Shown here: in pieces, positions 6,317 through 30,321 of the stretch
Layout of the letters: each line of letters opens with the position of its first letter
Position numbering within the stretch: the stretch's first letter is position 1
Source: a virus
Virus record (IMG/VR): IMGVR_UViG_3300042392_000335
Location: 1 to 30,321 of that record
Reading direction: 5' to 3' (one strand)
Length of the DNA stretch: 30,321 bases
Made by a program: the position numbers and the translations under genes
The notes under the pieces: model-generated
The model's database searches: none
Seen by the model: only the letters and a program-made list of their open reading frames with translations
What the model was told of the DNA's origin: nothing

Positions 6317-6347
6317 AAGCCTCTGGATATTGTCTAGGGGCTTTTTT
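6317..6347 (+). terminator. Intrinsic terminator after the lysis/phosphoesterase unit
   Basis: The stem is AAGCCTCT (6317-6324) with AGGGGCTT (6336-6343), eight pairs including one U-G, a loop of 11 bases, then a run of six T at 6342-6347. It lies 45 bases after the phosphoesterase stop and before the early promoter, so it separates late from early transcription. Confidence 0.85.
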
Positions 6348-6377
6348 GTTACCGTTAAATAAATAATTAAAAAAAAC

Positions 6378-6409
6378 TTTTTTTATTTGGGATAATTGTG
6401 TTATCTTTG
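6378..6409 (+). promoter_or_regulatory. Host-type (Bacteroidota) early promoter
   Basis: TATCTTTG at 6402-6409 matches the Bacteroidota -7 box TAnnTTTG. A T-run at 6378-6384 lies about 20 bases upstream in place of the -33 TTTG box, preceded by an A-tract that may act as an UP-like element. It follows the late terminator and precedes the first early gene (ATG 6451). Confidence 0.7.
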
Positions 6410-8757: not shown

Positions 8758-8892
8758 ATGGAAAAATCTAAATTTAATCAATGGCAAGACCATTTAGCAA
8801 AAGAGCTAAATAAGGACTACAAAAAGCTTTACTATTCAGCTAAGTATCCTGCTAAAAAAGAGGTAAAAAAAGTTTTACTTTCTAAAAATTAG
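8758..8892 (+). CDS. Tiny basic protein (44 aa)
   Basis: The ATG one base after the previous stop gives a 44-residue Lys-rich protein (MEKSKFNQWQDHLAKELNKD, then KEVKKVLLSKN). It is the last gene of the early operon before the RNA element, and its stop overlaps the spacer of the promoter at 8873-8902. Function unknown; the high Lys content would suit nucleic-acid contact. Confidence 0.5.
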   Translation: MEKSKFNQWQDHLAKELNKDYKKLYYSAKYPAKKEVKKVLLSKN

Positions 8893-8902
8893 TTTATATT
8901 TG
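8873..8902 (+). promoter_or_regulatory. Host-type promoter before the structured RNA
   Basis: TATATTTG at 8895-8902 matches TAnnTTTG exactly. TTTT at 8873-8876 lies 18 bases upstream as a one-mismatch -33 box (consensus TTTG). The expected start of transcription, about 7 bases past the -7 box, is close to 8909, just before the first hairpin. Confidence 0.7.
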
Positions 8903-8908
8903 TATCAT

Positions 8909-9006
8909 AATAAGCCGAAGGGGTCAGAGTCTTCGGGTTATTTTAAGGGTTAAAACAACCTAAAGCCAGTTCTGTACTCTGACACAGACTGGCTTTTATT
9001 TTTTAT
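8909..9006 (+). ncRNA. Candidate kissing-loop small RNA with three hairpins
   Basis: The gap between the genes ending at 8892 and starting at 9011 holds three consecutive hairpins. H1 is CCGAAG/CTTCGG (8915-8920 with 8931-8936), extended by TAA/TTA beyond a G-G mismatch, with loop GGGTCAGAGT (8921-8930). H2 is GGGTT/AACCT (8947-8951 with 8957-8961), loop AAAAC. H3 is AAAGCCAGT/ACTGGCTTT (8962-8970 with 8988-8996), nine perfect pairs or eight plus CTGT/ACAG, with loop ACTCTGAC (8976-8983). The whole H3 loop is the reverse complement of GTCAGAGT (8923-8930) in the H1 loop. A host-type promoter ends 6 bases upstream and H3 is followed by a T-rich tail. No known RNA family was recognised. Roles considered are a trans-acting phage sRNA, a leader that controls read-through into the replication gene, and copy-number-like control. 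Confidence 0.65.
8962..9004 (+). terminator. Intrinsic terminator formed by the third hairpin
   Basis: The stem AAAGCCAGT/ACTGGCTTT, with further inner pairing CTGT/ACAG, is followed by TATTTTTT at 8997-9004. It lies only 6 bases before the ATG of the replication gene, so it should release the small RNA and limit transcription into 9011 unless its loop is engaged elsewhere. Confidence 0.75.
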
Positions 9007-9010
9007 TAAC

Positions 9011-9709
9011 ATGGCAGCATTTAGAAAAATATCAGTAACCTTTTGGGCTGATTCATTTGTAGGAGAGCTTACCCCAGAGCAAAAGTATTTTTACCTTTAC
9101 TTGATGACTAATGACAAGACTACCCAGTGTGGTATCTATGAGACATCGATAAGAAAAATATGTTTTGATACTGGGTACAATTCCGAAACCGTTCATAAGT
9201 TATTAGACTTCTTTCAGGAAAAGAATAAGATTAGATTCTCAAAAGAAACAAATGAGATAGCACTTTTAAACTGGGTTAAATTTAATGACTCAAATTCTCC
9301 TAAAGTTTTGGCTTGTGTAGAAAAAGAGCTAAAGAACGTTAAAAATAGAGTATTGATACAGTATCTATATAGTATGGATACACATCCACAAGAAGAAGAA
9401 GAAAAAGAAGAAGAACAAGAAGAAGAATACCAACAAGAAGAAATTTTGTCTTTTAGGGATGAGTTGTTTAATAGATGGTTTACTTATAAGAAAGAAAAAA
9501 AATCTAAATATACACATAGCGGAATTAAACAATTATATAGAACTTGGGAAAACAAAAGTGACCAAGAACTAGAGGAGGCTATAAATAATTCTATTGCAAA
9601 TAACTATCAAGGAATATTTGAACCTAAAAAACAATTCAATGGAGCTACAAACAACGAACCGAAACTCGGAACTAGCGCAGCAAGAATGGAAGCCATTAAA
9701 AACTGGTAA
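9011..9709 (+). CDS. Replisome-organiser-like replication initiation protein
   Basis: This 232-residue protein begins MAAFRKISVTFWADSFVGEL, then TPEQKYFYLYLMTNDKTTQC, the winged-helix pattern of phage replisome organisers and DnaD-like initiators, in which SFVGELTPEQKYFYLYLM is typical. Residues 60-110 complete a winged-helix domain. A Glu-rich linker at 128-144 separates it from a C-terminal helical domain (FNRWFTYKKEKKSKY, then a block with WENKSDQELEEAINNSIANN, resembling the DnaD C-terminal block). It probably binds the origin and recruits the host helicase. The position directly after the structured RNA suggests its dose is controlled. The next gene overlaps it. Confidence 0.75.
   Translation: MAAFRKISVTFWADSFVGELTPEQKYFYLYLMTNDKTTQCGIYETSIRKICFDTGYNSETVHKLLDFFQEKNKIRFSKETNEIALLNWVKFNDSNSPKVLACVEKELKNVKNRVLIQYLYSMDTHPQEEEEKEEEQEEEYQQEEILSFRDELFNRWFTYKKEKKSKYTHSGIKQLYRTWENKSDQELEEAINNSIANNYQGIFEPKKQFNGATNNEPKLGTSAARMEAIKNW
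9392..9442 (+). repeat. GAA-rich microsatellite-like tract
   Basis: This nearly all-purine stretch on the + strand is made mainly of GAA triplets and encodes the Glu-rich linker of the replication protein (residues 128-144). Such tracts can slip and change length, and purine-rich easily melted DNA inside an initiator gene is a feature of some phage origins. No iterons were found beside it. Confidence 0.6.
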
Positions 9710-12805: not shown

Positions 12806-12978
12806 AACCAGACGAGAGAGCTGCATCGCTAATGAATAACGCTTATTACTTTACAGGTAATAAAATGTTTGCTAGGGAGCTTTGCCTTTATATGTGCGGA
12901 ATGATTAGCGAGTATTGCCAAAAAGCTGACGATAAGATTTACTGGAAATTAGTAGCCGAAAATATTTATCTACTCTAA
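12802..12978 (+). CDS. Small hypothetical protein (58 aa)
   Basis: The ATG at 12802 overlaps the DUF3310 stop (ATGA), and the frame runs 58 residues to a TAA that overlaps the sigma gene start (TAATG). It reads MKPDERAASLMNNAYYFTGN, then a Cys/Met-rich helix (CLYMCGMISEYCQKADD) and a final KIYWKLVAENIYLL. Perfect overlaps at both ends make it a real gene. Function unknown; coupling to the sigma gene may set its level. Confidence 0.7.
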   Translation: MKPDERAASLMNNAYYFTGNKMFARELCLYMCGMISEYCQKADDKIYWKLVAENIYLL

Positions 12979-13439
12979 TGGAGCATATCTACTCACGGCA
13001 TAAGCACTGGGTTTCAATTGTAAAAAAGTTTGGCGAAGTCAATTACGCCGAAGACGTAGTCCAAGAAGCATATATTAAAGTTTATGGCAAAGATATTAAC
13101 GAGGCTTATTTTTACTATACGCTTAGAAGCCTTACGATGGACTTACATTCTAAGAAAGTGGTTAAGGTAGAAGTAACTCAGGACATTGAGTATAGTTTAA
13201 GAGAAGATGAAAGCAACGAGCTTGCAGAAGAACTAGCCCAGCCGTTTATAGAGTTTATTGATACTTGGGACTGGTACGATAAAAAGCTGTTTATGCTTTG
13301 GGTAAATAATCGAATTTCAATACGTAAATTATCAAGAGAAACGAACATAGGGTTTATGAGCGTTTACAATACCATTAAAAAATGTAAATTAAAATTAAAG
13401 TTATGGCAAGAAAATCAAACAAAAAATCAATTGACGTAG
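12978..13439 (+). CDS. Phage sigma-70-family (ECF-like) sigma factor
   Basis: This 153-residue protein has a sigma region 2 (NYAEDVVQEAYIKVYGK near 23-39, then YFYYTLRSLTMDLHSKKVVK) and a C-terminal region 4-like helix-turn-helix (LWVNNRISIRKLSRETNIGF, then MSVYNTIKKCKLKLKL). AEDVVQEAY is the core-polymerase-binding signature of ECF sigma factors. An acidic linker joins the two domains. It probably redirects host RNA polymerase to phage promoters; the CGTTTATA motif before four late modules is the natural candidate target. It overlaps the following gene by 37 bases. Confidence 0.8.
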   Translation: MEHIYSRHKHWVSIVKKFGEVNYAEDVVQEAYIKVYGKDINEAYFYYTLRSLTMDLHSKKVVKVEVTQDIEYSLREDESNELAEELAQPFIEFIDTWDWYDKKLFMLWVNNRISIRKLSRETNIGFMSVYNTIKKCKLKLKLWQENQTKNQLT

Positions 13440-20806: not shown

Positions 20807-22821
20807 AAATTGAAATTAAGAATAACTTAGACTCAGTAAATGAGAAGTTAGACGATGTAGTAGGAAAAGTAGAAGAGGTAGCTCAAGCCAATAAGGAAGC
20901 AAATAAAAGTTTTAAAGAAGCCGAAAAATCAGCTAGCTCATTAGCCAAAGGTTTCTCTGGTATTGGTCTTGCCATTAAGGCAATGGGTATAGGCTTGCTA
21001 ATGAAAGGATTTGAATTACTTTCGGACGCATTTGCAAGAAATCAAAAAGTAGCCGATGCGCTATCTACTATATTCGAAACTATTTCAATTACTTTAAATC
21101 AGGTAACTAATATAGTTGTAGGGGTTATTGAAAAGGTTAGTAAATCGAGCAAAGGTTTCGAAGGATTAACTAATGTAATTAAAGGATTAATGACGCTTGC
21201 TTTGACTCCTTTAAAAGCTGCATTTTATGGCATAGGAGTAGCAATTTCAGAAATACAATTAGCTTGGGAACAATCACTTTTTGGAGATAAAGACCCAAAG
21301 CAAATTACTGTTTTAATTGATAGACTTAATTATTTTAAGGCTGGGTTAAGAGAAACGAGAGTTGATGCAGTTGAAGCAGGAAAAAATATAGCATCAAATT
21401 TAGGCAAAGCAGTATCTGAAATAGGACAAGTAGTTCAAGGCTCAATTGAAGGCATAAGCAAAATAGATATTGAGGCTAATAAAAAGCAAGCAGAAAATTT
21501 AGTTAAACTTAGAAAAGCAGCTCAGATAGCAGTTGCAGAACAACAAGGATTAGTAGAAAAATATGATAGAGAGGCTGAATTAAAAAGACAAATAAGAGAT
21601 GATGAATCTAAAAGTATTGCTGATAGAAAAAAAGCAAATACTGAATTAGGTCAAACATTAGAAAAACAAAGAATAGCAATGACTAAGCTTGCTGATTTGC
21701 AAGTTGAAGCTGCTGATGCTGAGGTAAAAGCTTTAAGAAATCAAGCTAATTTAGTTGCTTATCAAGAATCATTAAATAATCAAAAAGCAGTTGCAGCTCA
21801 AATTACAGGTTTAGAATCAGAGCAAAAAGTAAATGCTGTTGCACTAACTAAAGAAGAACTTGAACTTCAAAAATCTATAAATGACGGTAAGGTTGAAGCA
21901 TTAAATGTTCAAGAGCAGTTTAATGCAGATTCAATTAAGAACGACGAATCAAGACTTGCTTCACAAAGAAAAGCACTTGAAGAGCAAAGAGTAAGGGATT
22001 TAGCCAATATCCAGCAGACAATAGATTCTTATAATGAGGGGACTCAAGCTAGAGCGGATGCTGAAACTGCTTTCTTATTAAAGAAGACAGAAATTGATAA
22101 TGCCATTGCAGCAAAAGATGTTGAAATAAAAAATGAGGCTTTAAATAGACAATACGCTTTTAATGAATTAGTAATTAGTAATGAGCGGTCTGCATTTCAA
22201 GCACAGCTAGAGGCATTAGATTCTCAAAATGCAATTATTAGAGAAAGAGAATATGCAAATGAAGCTGAAAGAACTCAAGCTTTAAAAGATAATACAGATA
22301 AGCGTATAGCAATCGAAAGGTCATACAAAGATGCAAGAATTGCTGCTGAATTACAATTTGTTGATGCTAGTAGAGGAGCAATTAATGCTTTAGGTTCTTT
22401 ATTTGAACAAGGAACGGATGCAGCAAAAGCCGCAGCATTAGCTGATATTGCCATAGGTACTGCAACTGGATTTATTCAAGCATTAGATATTGCACAAAAA
22501 GGAGCTAAAGCATCGGGACCAGCAGCACCATTTGCATTCCCAATATTTTACGCATCACAGATTGCAGCGGTTCTTGGGGCAGCTGGAAGAGCAAAATCGG
22601 TTTTAGAATCAGGTAATTCAAATAGCGGAGGCGGTAGCAGTGCTCCTGCATCTGCTTCTATTGTTCCTAATTTTAATGTAGTAGGTTCTTCTGGTGTAAA
22701 TCAAATCGCTCAAACATTAGGCAGGGATTTGCCACCAGTTAAGGCTTATGTTGTCGCAAACGACGTAACTTCTGCTCAAAGTTTAAATCGTAATATAGTT
22801 TCAAGTGCAACTCTTGGATAA
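20788..22821 (+). CDS. Tape measure protein
   Basis: This 677-residue protein is dominated by coiled coil (residues about 225-530 rich in Ala, Lys, Glu, Gln). It carries hydrophobic segments near 50-75 (GLAIKAMGIGLLMKGFELLS), near 140-160 (LTPLKAAFYGIGVAISEIQL) and near the C-terminus (AAPFAFPIFYASQIAAVLGA). It ends in a Gly/Ser-rich linker and a short beta tail. Long alpha-helical chain plus embedded membrane-active segments is the tape-measure layout. Its length suggests a siphovirus-like tail of roughly 100 nm by the usual 1.5 A per residue rule. It is the last gene of the tail operon. Confidence 0.85.
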   Translation: MEKKKVEIEIKNNLDSVNEKLDDVVGKVEEVAQANKEANKSFKEAEKSASSLAKGFSGIGLAIKAMGIGLLMKGFELLSDAFARNQKVADALSTIFETISITLNQVTNIVVGVIEKVSKSSKGFEGLTNVIKGLMTLALTPLKAAFYGIGVAISEIQLAWEQSLFGDKDPKQITVLIDRLNYFKAGLRETRVDAVEAGKNIASNLGKAVSEIGQVVQGSIEGISKIDIEANKKQAENLVKLRKAAQIAVAEQQGLVEKYDREAELKRQIRDDESKSIADRKKANTELGQTLEKQRIAMTKLADLQVEAADAEVKALRNQANLVAYQESLNNQKAVAAQITGLESEQKVNAVALTKEELELQKSINDGKVEALNVQEQFNADSIKNDESRLASQRKALEEQRVRDLANIQQTIDSYNEGTQARADAETAFLLKKTEIDNAIAAKDVEIKNEALNRQYAFNELVISNERSAFQAQLEALDSQNAIIREREYANEAERTQALKDNTDKRIAIERSYKDARIAAELQFVDASRGAINALGSLFEQGTDAAKAAALADIAIGTATGFIQALDIAQKGAKASGPAAPFAFPIFYASQIAAVLGAAGRAKSVLESGNSNSGGGSSAPASASIVPNFNVVGSSGVNQIAQTLGRDLPPVKAYVVANDVTSAQSLNRNIVSSATLG

Positions 22822-29656: not shown

Positions 29657-30321
29657 ATGGATGATATTACAATCGGAGTGACCGAATTCGTTAATAATAT
29701 TCTCGTTTCGGCACAGCCTAATGACCAAATAATAGATATTGCGGTAACTGAAACCGTTGAAACCGTCTTACTAGATGTAAGCACTACGGTTCAGGAGGTT
29801 ACGGTCACGGCTACTCAGAACGTAATAGTAGAAAACATCACGGTAGACTACGTTAATAACGAGAATAACATCGATATAAACGTAACAGATGCGACGCAAG
29901 ACGTAACTCTTAACGTCACGCCTACCCTAGTTGAGATTAATATTCTACGCTCAGGCGGTGAGGTTAATATTTTGCAATTTAATACGCTTGCAGACTTCCC
30001 AGCGACTGGCTCAAGTGACTATTTCTACCTTGCAAAGGATACTAATAAACTATATCGCTGGACTGGTTCTGCTTATGCTGAGATTTCAGCTACTTCTAGT
30101 CCAGTATGGGGGCAGATTATAGGTACATTAAGCAATCAAACTGATTTACAAAATGCTTTAAATCTTAAAGCTCCTATTAATTCCCCTACGTTTACAGGAA
30201 CGGTTAGCGGTATTACTAAAACAATGGTAGGGCTTGGGGCGGTAGATAATACAAGTGATTTAGATAAGCCTATCTCGACTGCTACACAAACGGCTTTAAA
30301 TAACAAGCAACCTTTAGATGG
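29657..30321 (+). CDS. Tail fibre, 5' part (continues at base 2 of the window)
   Basis: The ATG at 29657 (MDDITIGVTEFVNNILVSAQ) opens the fibre gene, two bases after the previous stop. The frame passes through the 99-base repeat and continues at position 2, to the stop at 3469. The N-terminal 120 residues are rich in Val, Thr and Asn (VTETVETVLLDVSTTVQEVT), likely an extended beta strand that anchors the fibre to the BppU-like protein. Repeat module A (29978-30169) then begins. Confidence 0.92.
   Translation, partial: MDDITIGVTEFVNNILVSAQPNDQIIDIAVTETVETVLLDVSTTVQEVTVTATQNVIVENITVDYVNNENNIDINVTDATQDVTLNVTPTLVEINILRSGGEVNILQFNTLADFPATGSSDYFYLAKDTNKLYRWTGSAYAEISATSSPVWGQIIGTLSNQTDLQNALNLKAPINSPTFTGTVSGITKTMVGLGAVDNTSDLDKPISTATQTALNNKQPLD
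29978..30169 (+). repeat. Fibre module repeat A, copy 1
   Basis: This codes for FNTLADFPATG, then DTNKLYRWTGS and TDLQNALNLK, in the same order as copy 2 at 356-535. The copies share length and layout, but not enough DNA identity to confuse a short-read assembly. They probably arose by duplication within the gene. Confidence 0.75.
30223..30321. repeat. Terminal direct repeat, right copy (contig circularity)
   Basis: Exact copy of 1-99. The fibre gene reads through it in frame, with the ATG-like codon at 30224-30226 equal to the codon at 2-4. It marks where the circular sequence was cut. Confidence 0.95.

Follow-up and report, generated by a model that had tools for sequence, protein, structure and literature searches.

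A candidate leader RNA with kissing loops ahead of replication genes in phages, mostly of the Flavobacterium group

Why does a phage replication gene lie directly behind a row of small hairpins, two of which carry loops that are exactly complementary to one another? The question is raised by the window, the whole stretch of viral DNA analysed here (30,321 nt, IMG/VR record IMGVR_UViG_3300042392_000335), in which a gene for a replication initiator or replisome organizer starts with the ATG at 9011 and runs to 9709 on the + strand (phrog_6251, E 1.3e-45; phrog_1701, E 2.1e-29). The element ahead of it (8895–9005, + strand) comprises a TAnnTTTG promoter, three hairpins and a terminator-like U-tail, and has the look of a so far undescribed RNA switch that keeps down the amount of replication protein.

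The element in the window

The initial annotation had described a promoter box followed by three hairpins and a T-rich tail, and all of these are present in the sequence and in the predicted fold. The −7 box TATATTTG lies at 8895–8902 (+ strand) and conforms to the consensus TAnnTTTG, and inspection of the sequence found no clear TTG at −33 of this promoter. As the −7 box of Flavobacterium covers −12 to −5 (PMC6847099, PMC9723704), the predicted RNA would start at about 8907 and end at about 9000, giving a length of about 95 nt. Hairpin 1, the 5′ hairpin (8909–8942, + strand), would thus open at about +3, and it is supported by the fold and by compensatory changes. Hairpin 2 (8947–8961, + strand; GGGTT...AACC) is a small linker that appears in the fold and the alignments, but it is weak and is lost in some relatives. 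Hairpin 3 (8962–8996, + strand) has a nearly invariant AAGCCAG/CTGGCTT base and an upper stem that covaries; the U-rich tail (8994–9004, + strand), which reads TTTTATTTTTT after the hairpin, has a T-rich counterpart in all relatives. With its G+C-rich stem and directly adjoining U-tract, hairpin 3 is a predicted intrinsic terminator. The hairpin boundaries first proposed hold to within two bases, and only hairpin 1 had been drawn too short, at 8911–8940.

The complete 8-nt apical loop of hairpin 3, ACTCTGAC (8976–8983, + strand), is the exact reverse complement of GTCAGAGT (8923–8930, + strand) in the loop of hairpin 1, as had been claimed, and this match is kept in homologues. In the minimum free energy structure U8930 forms part of the G-U pair that closes hairpin 1. 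Each octamer occurs only once on the + strand of the window. The fold of 8903–9012 has an MFE of −34.2 kcal/mol (z = −5.4), and none of 200 shuffled sequences was equally stable.

Loop pairing and occurrence among relatives

Seventy-one viral loci were gathered by homology of the initiator protein, with the RNA playing no part in their selection, and 20 distinct type-A elements were located through the conserved terminator stem with the loops ignored. In these 20 elements the seven pairs of the kissing helix are paired in 100% of 140 cells, and three of the seven vary, always on both sides, which gives compensatory double changes in 20 cells. Shuffles averaged 5.8 such cells, none of 500 was as good in pairing or in covariation, and slid registers of the helix gave only 0–2 covarying cells. 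Hairpin 1 shows compensatory changes at eight of its 11 pairs in the type-A alignment, with 98.6% of cells paired. A type-A model built without the kissing pairs finds the element at 87–114 bits in 36 of 72 sources, nearly all of them upstream of an initiator, although the 20 training sequences among these 36 match by construction. A strict detector (two hairpins, complementary loops, U-run) fired in 35 of 62 initiator upstream regions as against 4 of 310 shuffled ones. This rate, together with kissing pairs that are fully kept through compensatory changes, excludes a chance match. Loops that drift independently in homologues had been named as the observation that would count against the proposal; what we find instead is that the two loops change together. 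With its loop pairing maintained by compensatory change, the element is by its predicted structure a kissing-loop RNA.

The carriers are mostly phages of the Flavobacterium group, as far as their hosts are known. A loop-pattern scan of viral contigs returned at least 120 stretches, and among the matches listed from the viral and genome-contig scans 116 pass the hairpin filters, and almost every one of these is viral. A second search, begun from an HTH_36 initiator that has no Pfam domain in common with the initiator of the window, again found the element upstream, among others with the loop pairs CTCACTAC/GTAGTGAG, GTTCTCAC/GTGAGAAC, CTTCTCAC/GTGAGAAG and GATCTCAC/GTGAGATC; a third pattern gave 45 stretches with CATCCTAC/GTAGGATG. 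There are also mirror-image types, the reverse of that in the window (L293–L337, L339, L342, L344, L359 and L019), in which hairpin 1 holds the C-rich strand, usually with ATTATA directly behind it, and the terminator loop holds the G-rich one. Loop pairs that have diverged further, at least 20 of them and some read by eye (phage 11b, L051), are all complementary, and the total comes to over 20 loop pairs of 6–10 bp. One strand of the kissing helix nearly always starts with GU and the other ends with AC.

Four cultured phages carry the element, in each case unannotated. In Tenacibaculum phage JQ it occupies 35967–36049 of MT002873 (loops AGCATCCTAC/GTAGGATGCT) and is followed by a small ORF, a relative of the initiator and a helicase. 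Flavobacterium phages hattifnatt9-1 and snusmum6-1 have GCTTCGAC/GTCGAAGC ahead of a helicase, and Flavobacterium phage 11b has CGGGCAGG/CCTGCCCG ahead of PHG11b_62, found by eye. A strict scan detected no element in phages P12024S, RAP44, B124-14 and P12002L or in the first half of crAss001; as the same scan misses the element of 11b, which is clear by eye, this absence is weak evidence. A few contigs of 50–55% G+C (L074, L178) lack a TAnnTTTG box but match the model at E < 1e-6, and the family may therefore extend beyond phages of Bacteroidota. Pattern matches in genome contigs were mostly chance inverted repeats, and only those in Ekhidna (L206) and in a member of the Saprospiraceae (L243, ahead of a DnaG-type primase) look real. 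The type-A model R1 was run on two samples of about 400 Bacteroidota genomes, 794 in all, and gave six weak matches, in none of which the scan detected kissing loops, which suggests that the RNA is not common in prophages, R1 being tuned to type A so that it would miss other types. A role in lysogenic immunity was considered and found no support, the 794 genomes having yielded no kissing element in that scan.

Conserved spacing and a possible attenuating leader

Fixed distances separate the promoter, hairpin 1, the terminator and the start codon that follows. In 51 of 101 non-redundant relatives found by pattern, a TAnnTTTG box ends 18–21 nt before the first kissing base, and a TTG starts 22–24 nt upstream of the box in 47 of the 54 relatives with a strict promoter. 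The start codon of an ORF of at least 40 aa follows the GGCTTTT by 10–16 nt in 92 of the 101, whereas an ATG lay at 9–19 nt from 56 of 1010 random positions. These start codons look genuine, since 78% have an A at −3, as in the translation start rule of Flavobacterium (PMC6847099). In several close relatives (L001, L002, L003, L007, L021, L022) the promoter reads TATATTGC in place of TATATTTG, which resembles the TAnnTTGY box of motif SM5 of F. psychrophilum, probably that of an alternative sigma factor (PMC9723704). An ORF at 12978–13439 of the window resembles a small ECF-type sigma factor by eye, with no Pfam or PHROG match at E < 0.001, and its product might act on the cassette promoters.

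The gene behind the RNA is most often one of replication, be it a replisome organizer, Lin1244_N, HTH_36, a BT4734/PriCT primase, a DnaG-type primase or a helicase, and the initiator families among these are unrelated to one another. In some loci it is instead a small ORF, an HNH endonuclease or a Bro-N antirepressor (Bro-N in L074, an antirepressor-like ORF in L137). Where small ORFs or HNH genes are inserted between RNA and initiator, the spacing to the RNA is unchanged. HNH/NUMOD4 endonuclease-type genes come first behind the RNA in seven loci (L097, L126, L098, L177, L158, L172, L293), as if they inserted at, or travelled with, the RNA. In L158 there are two kissing elements with different loops, at about 4330 and at 736 (minus strand): GTTGAG ahead of the replication operon and GTGAGAG ahead of a NUMOD4/HNH endonuclease gene.

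We favor the reading, to which we give a probability of about 60%, that the cassette is an attenuating leader of the phage replication operon, producing a short terminated RNA and a readthrough mRNA, with the loop contact tuning the choice between the two. RNA polymerase would start at the TAnnTTTG box, so that hairpin 1 comes almost at the very 5′ end of the RNA, and would then meet hairpin 3, the predicted intrinsic terminator, some 14–17 nt ahead of the start codon. Most transcripts would stop there and give the RNA of about 95 nt, and the fraction that reads through would serve as mRNA for the initiator, primase or helicase gene. Loop 1 would kiss the loop of the terminator hairpin over 6–10 bp, whether both loops belong to the same nascent RNA or one of them sits on a copy already released, and this contact would set how often transcription stops at hairpin 3 or would hinder access of the ribosome. 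The dose of the replication protein would thereby be limited, or tied to the copy number of the phage. The sign of the effect could go either way: within one molecule or between two, the contact might strengthen the terminator, hinder it or control entry of the ribosome.

In the window only 6 nt separate the terminator tail from the ATG, which leaves no room for a second promoter, and the upstream genes run in the same direction. The initiator would thus be expressed by readthrough, from this promoter or from the upstream genes; an initiator that needs readthrough points to a leader that attenuates transcription and frees a short RNA as well. Such a leader is favored over a free RNA by the constant spacing from GGCTTTT to start codon, and no long-range partner of the terminator loop other than hairpin 1 is conserved. 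On the other hand, no anti-terminator was found: in duplex energies for 20 sequences, the leader pairs with the 5′ arm of the terminator no better than shuffled leaders do, and the terminator arms bind each other far better than the leader binds that arm. This counts against an attenuating leader, as it leaves the way in which the loop contact would change termination unexplained, and so do the small ORF or HNH gene that stands between RNA and initiator in some relatives and the HNH gene that follows the second element of one contig. The loop contact may serve the stability of the RNA instead of attenuation.

Relation to known RNAs

The initial annotation had stated that no known RNA class has this layout in Bacteroidota phages. 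No Rfam family reached its gathering score in either the window or 11 loci related to it; at a relaxed threshold only PyrR (20 bits, gathering score 54) and a microRNA model appeared. A full-text literature search, for which most subscription journals were beyond reach, found no report of this RNA. Covariation, spacing and the Rfam result together support the proposal of a kissing-loop RNA, so far undescribed, that has a promoter and a terminator of its own beside a replication gene. Judged by its sequence, we take it to be a new RNA family, functionally nearest to the IsrK, P4 CI and pT181 leaders and a member of none of them. A widespread family with no match at gathering score in Rfam would join these three in the control of replication, and with the loop of the stop signal itself as one of the two partners its design would be the simplest among such leaders.

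The C4 antisense RNA of phage P1 (RF01695) comes from the leader of an antirepressor operon and uses short complementary sequences. The CI RNA of satellite phage P4 comes from the leader of its replication operon, where short complements (seqA–seqC) act on termination (PMC4825925). Our element shares with both the leader position and the short complementary sequences, and its location before an antirepressor or replication operon is theirs as well, with mostly replication genes in our case. It differs in that their targets lie outside the small RNA: among 102 elements the own loop sequences recur four times (K) and zero times (R) within 1.5 kb on each side, no more than other loop types, and targets of this kind near the elements were accordingly rejected. 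Furthermore, no lysogeny module was noticed in the window or in phage JQ. IsrK of the Salmonella prophage Gifsy-1 arises from one promoter as a short terminated RNA and a readthrough mRNA; the latter encodes a small ORF and an antirepressor, and the short form acts on it in trans (PMC4825925). A short terminated RNA plus a readthrough mRNA is also what we propose from sequence for the present element, and IsrK is a measured precedent for it. IsrK, however, pairs inside the downstream ORF by long helices, while here no complement was found except that between hairpin 1 and the loop of the terminator, and a replication gene usually follows. Membership of the C4 antisense RNA/IsrK group (RF01695 and relatives) was rejected, no covariance model having matched at its gathering score. 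The repC attenuator of plasmid pT181 likewise has a kissing hairpin and an intrinsic terminator in a leader upstream of the replication initiator, and it sets copy number (PMC4878617). It needs an antisense RNA from the opposite strand and an anti-terminator, and we found support for neither. Of 103 loci, 19 have an antisense TAnnTTTG in the 200 nt downstream, against a background of 15%, a count that covers promoters of the TAnnTTTG type only. Without a consistent antisense promoter of this type and without an anti-terminator, the classical pT181 switch probably does not apply.

The comparisons first offered, with ColE1 and with the put sites of HK022, are partial likenesses and weaker than those with IsrK, P4 CI and pT181. 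In ColE1 short, fully matched loop–loop contacts between RNA I and RNA II decide on replication, and the loop sequence sets their specificity; those loops lie on RNAs from opposite strands and act on a primer, whereas here both lie on one RNA. The put sites are a pair of hairpins directly after an early phage promoter and cause antitermination at distant terminators, whereas here one partner is the terminator itself; we know of no loop–loop covariation in put.

Loop alleles and rival readings

A further reading, possible though tentative, is that the released RNA acts in trans as a specificity RNA for incompatibility or superinfection: it would kiss the nascent leader of another phage of the same type and shut its replication gene, so that new alleles would be favored. 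In its favor, the promoters and initiators of near relatives may be almost identical while their RNAs fall into discrete alleles. In 40 pairs whose flanks are similar, RNAs of the same type are 83–100% identical and those of different type 69–78%, and 16 of the 40 pairs differ in type. L031 and L037, which have different loop types, are identical over the 80 nt upstream of hairpin 1 (100%) and 94% identical over the first 300 nt of the initiator, against 69% in the RNA; taking L031, L035 or L036 against L037, promoter regions are 92–100%, initiators 92–94% and RNAs 69–70% identical. The window and L003 are a similar case (98% upstream, 90% in the initiator, 74% in the RNA). In these alignments the RNA is replaced as a unit, as discrete alleles swapped between near-identical phages. 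On a tree of 32 initiator genes the loop type changes 13 times, close to the mean of 14.2 for random labels, with as low a count in 45 of 200 randomisations. The fully matched loops of 6–10 nt also resemble the kissing loops of plasmids, and the sole two-element contig bears two different loop types. Yet each molecule carries both halves, so an intramolecular contact should compete strongly. The exchange of loops fits such a role but is no proof of it, as these phage genomes are mosaic in any case and the exchange may be neutral.

At its widest, this reading would give lytic phages a natural set of more than 20 exchangeable, roughly orthogonal RNA alleles with which to gauge their own copy number and to shut out relatives that share their type, a speculative proposal to which we give only a minor weight. 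If it were true, the terminated leader of a resident phage would kiss the incoming nascent leader and halt its replication gene, and escape would be by a swap of the cassette. The many natural loop alleles on near-identical backgrounds are ready-made and possibly orthogonal parts, and offer a direct test of whether RNA loop types act as phage incompatibility groups; with the element present in four cultured phage genomes, this question can be tested now.

We consider it unlikely that the RNA acts in cis only, as a pseudoknot shielding the 5′ end of the replication mRNA or holding a compact fold for a protein of phage or host. That the predicted RNA begins nearly at hairpin 1, and that the kissing helix has a preferred form with its GU start and AC end, would suit such a structure, which by itself gives no reason why the loop partner should always be the terminator hairpin. 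Rather doubtful, too, is an independent small RNA whose targets in host or phage have nothing to do with the replication operon that it happens to precede. Its own promoter and terminator signals and the occasional small ORF or HNH gene before the initiator are what one would expect of it; but the next gene keeps the same short distance even where such a gene is inserted, the genomic context is overwhelmingly one of replication, and in the 3 kb around it copies of its loop sequences are no more frequent than background. A DNA element (origin hairpins) or a packaging RNA is suggested by the position next to the initiator gene and by paired loops that could bridge molecules, as in phi29 pRNA, but is very improbable given promoter and terminator signals at fixed spacing, the tight start-codon spacing, the helicase, primase and antirepressor genes that also follow the cassette, and compensatory pairs that agree with RNA folding.

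Some further features of the sequences may be mentioned. The window has a second regulatory gap at 6317–6409, where a terminator-like hairpin (GCCTC...GGGGC, T-run) and then TATCTTTG precede an operon with a small ORF, Erf and an ssDNA-binding-like gene; a scan of this gap found no kissing partner. The 59-kb contig of L087 (G797) holds two strong elements, at 21063 and 52164, which are 31.1 kb apart and differ in score, and it is possibly two related genomes joined in assembly. Positions 1–100 and 30220–30321 of the window encode the same peptide (MVGLGAVDNTSDLDKP...), and the 30.3-kb record is therefore probably an entire phage genome, either circular or with terminal redundancy.
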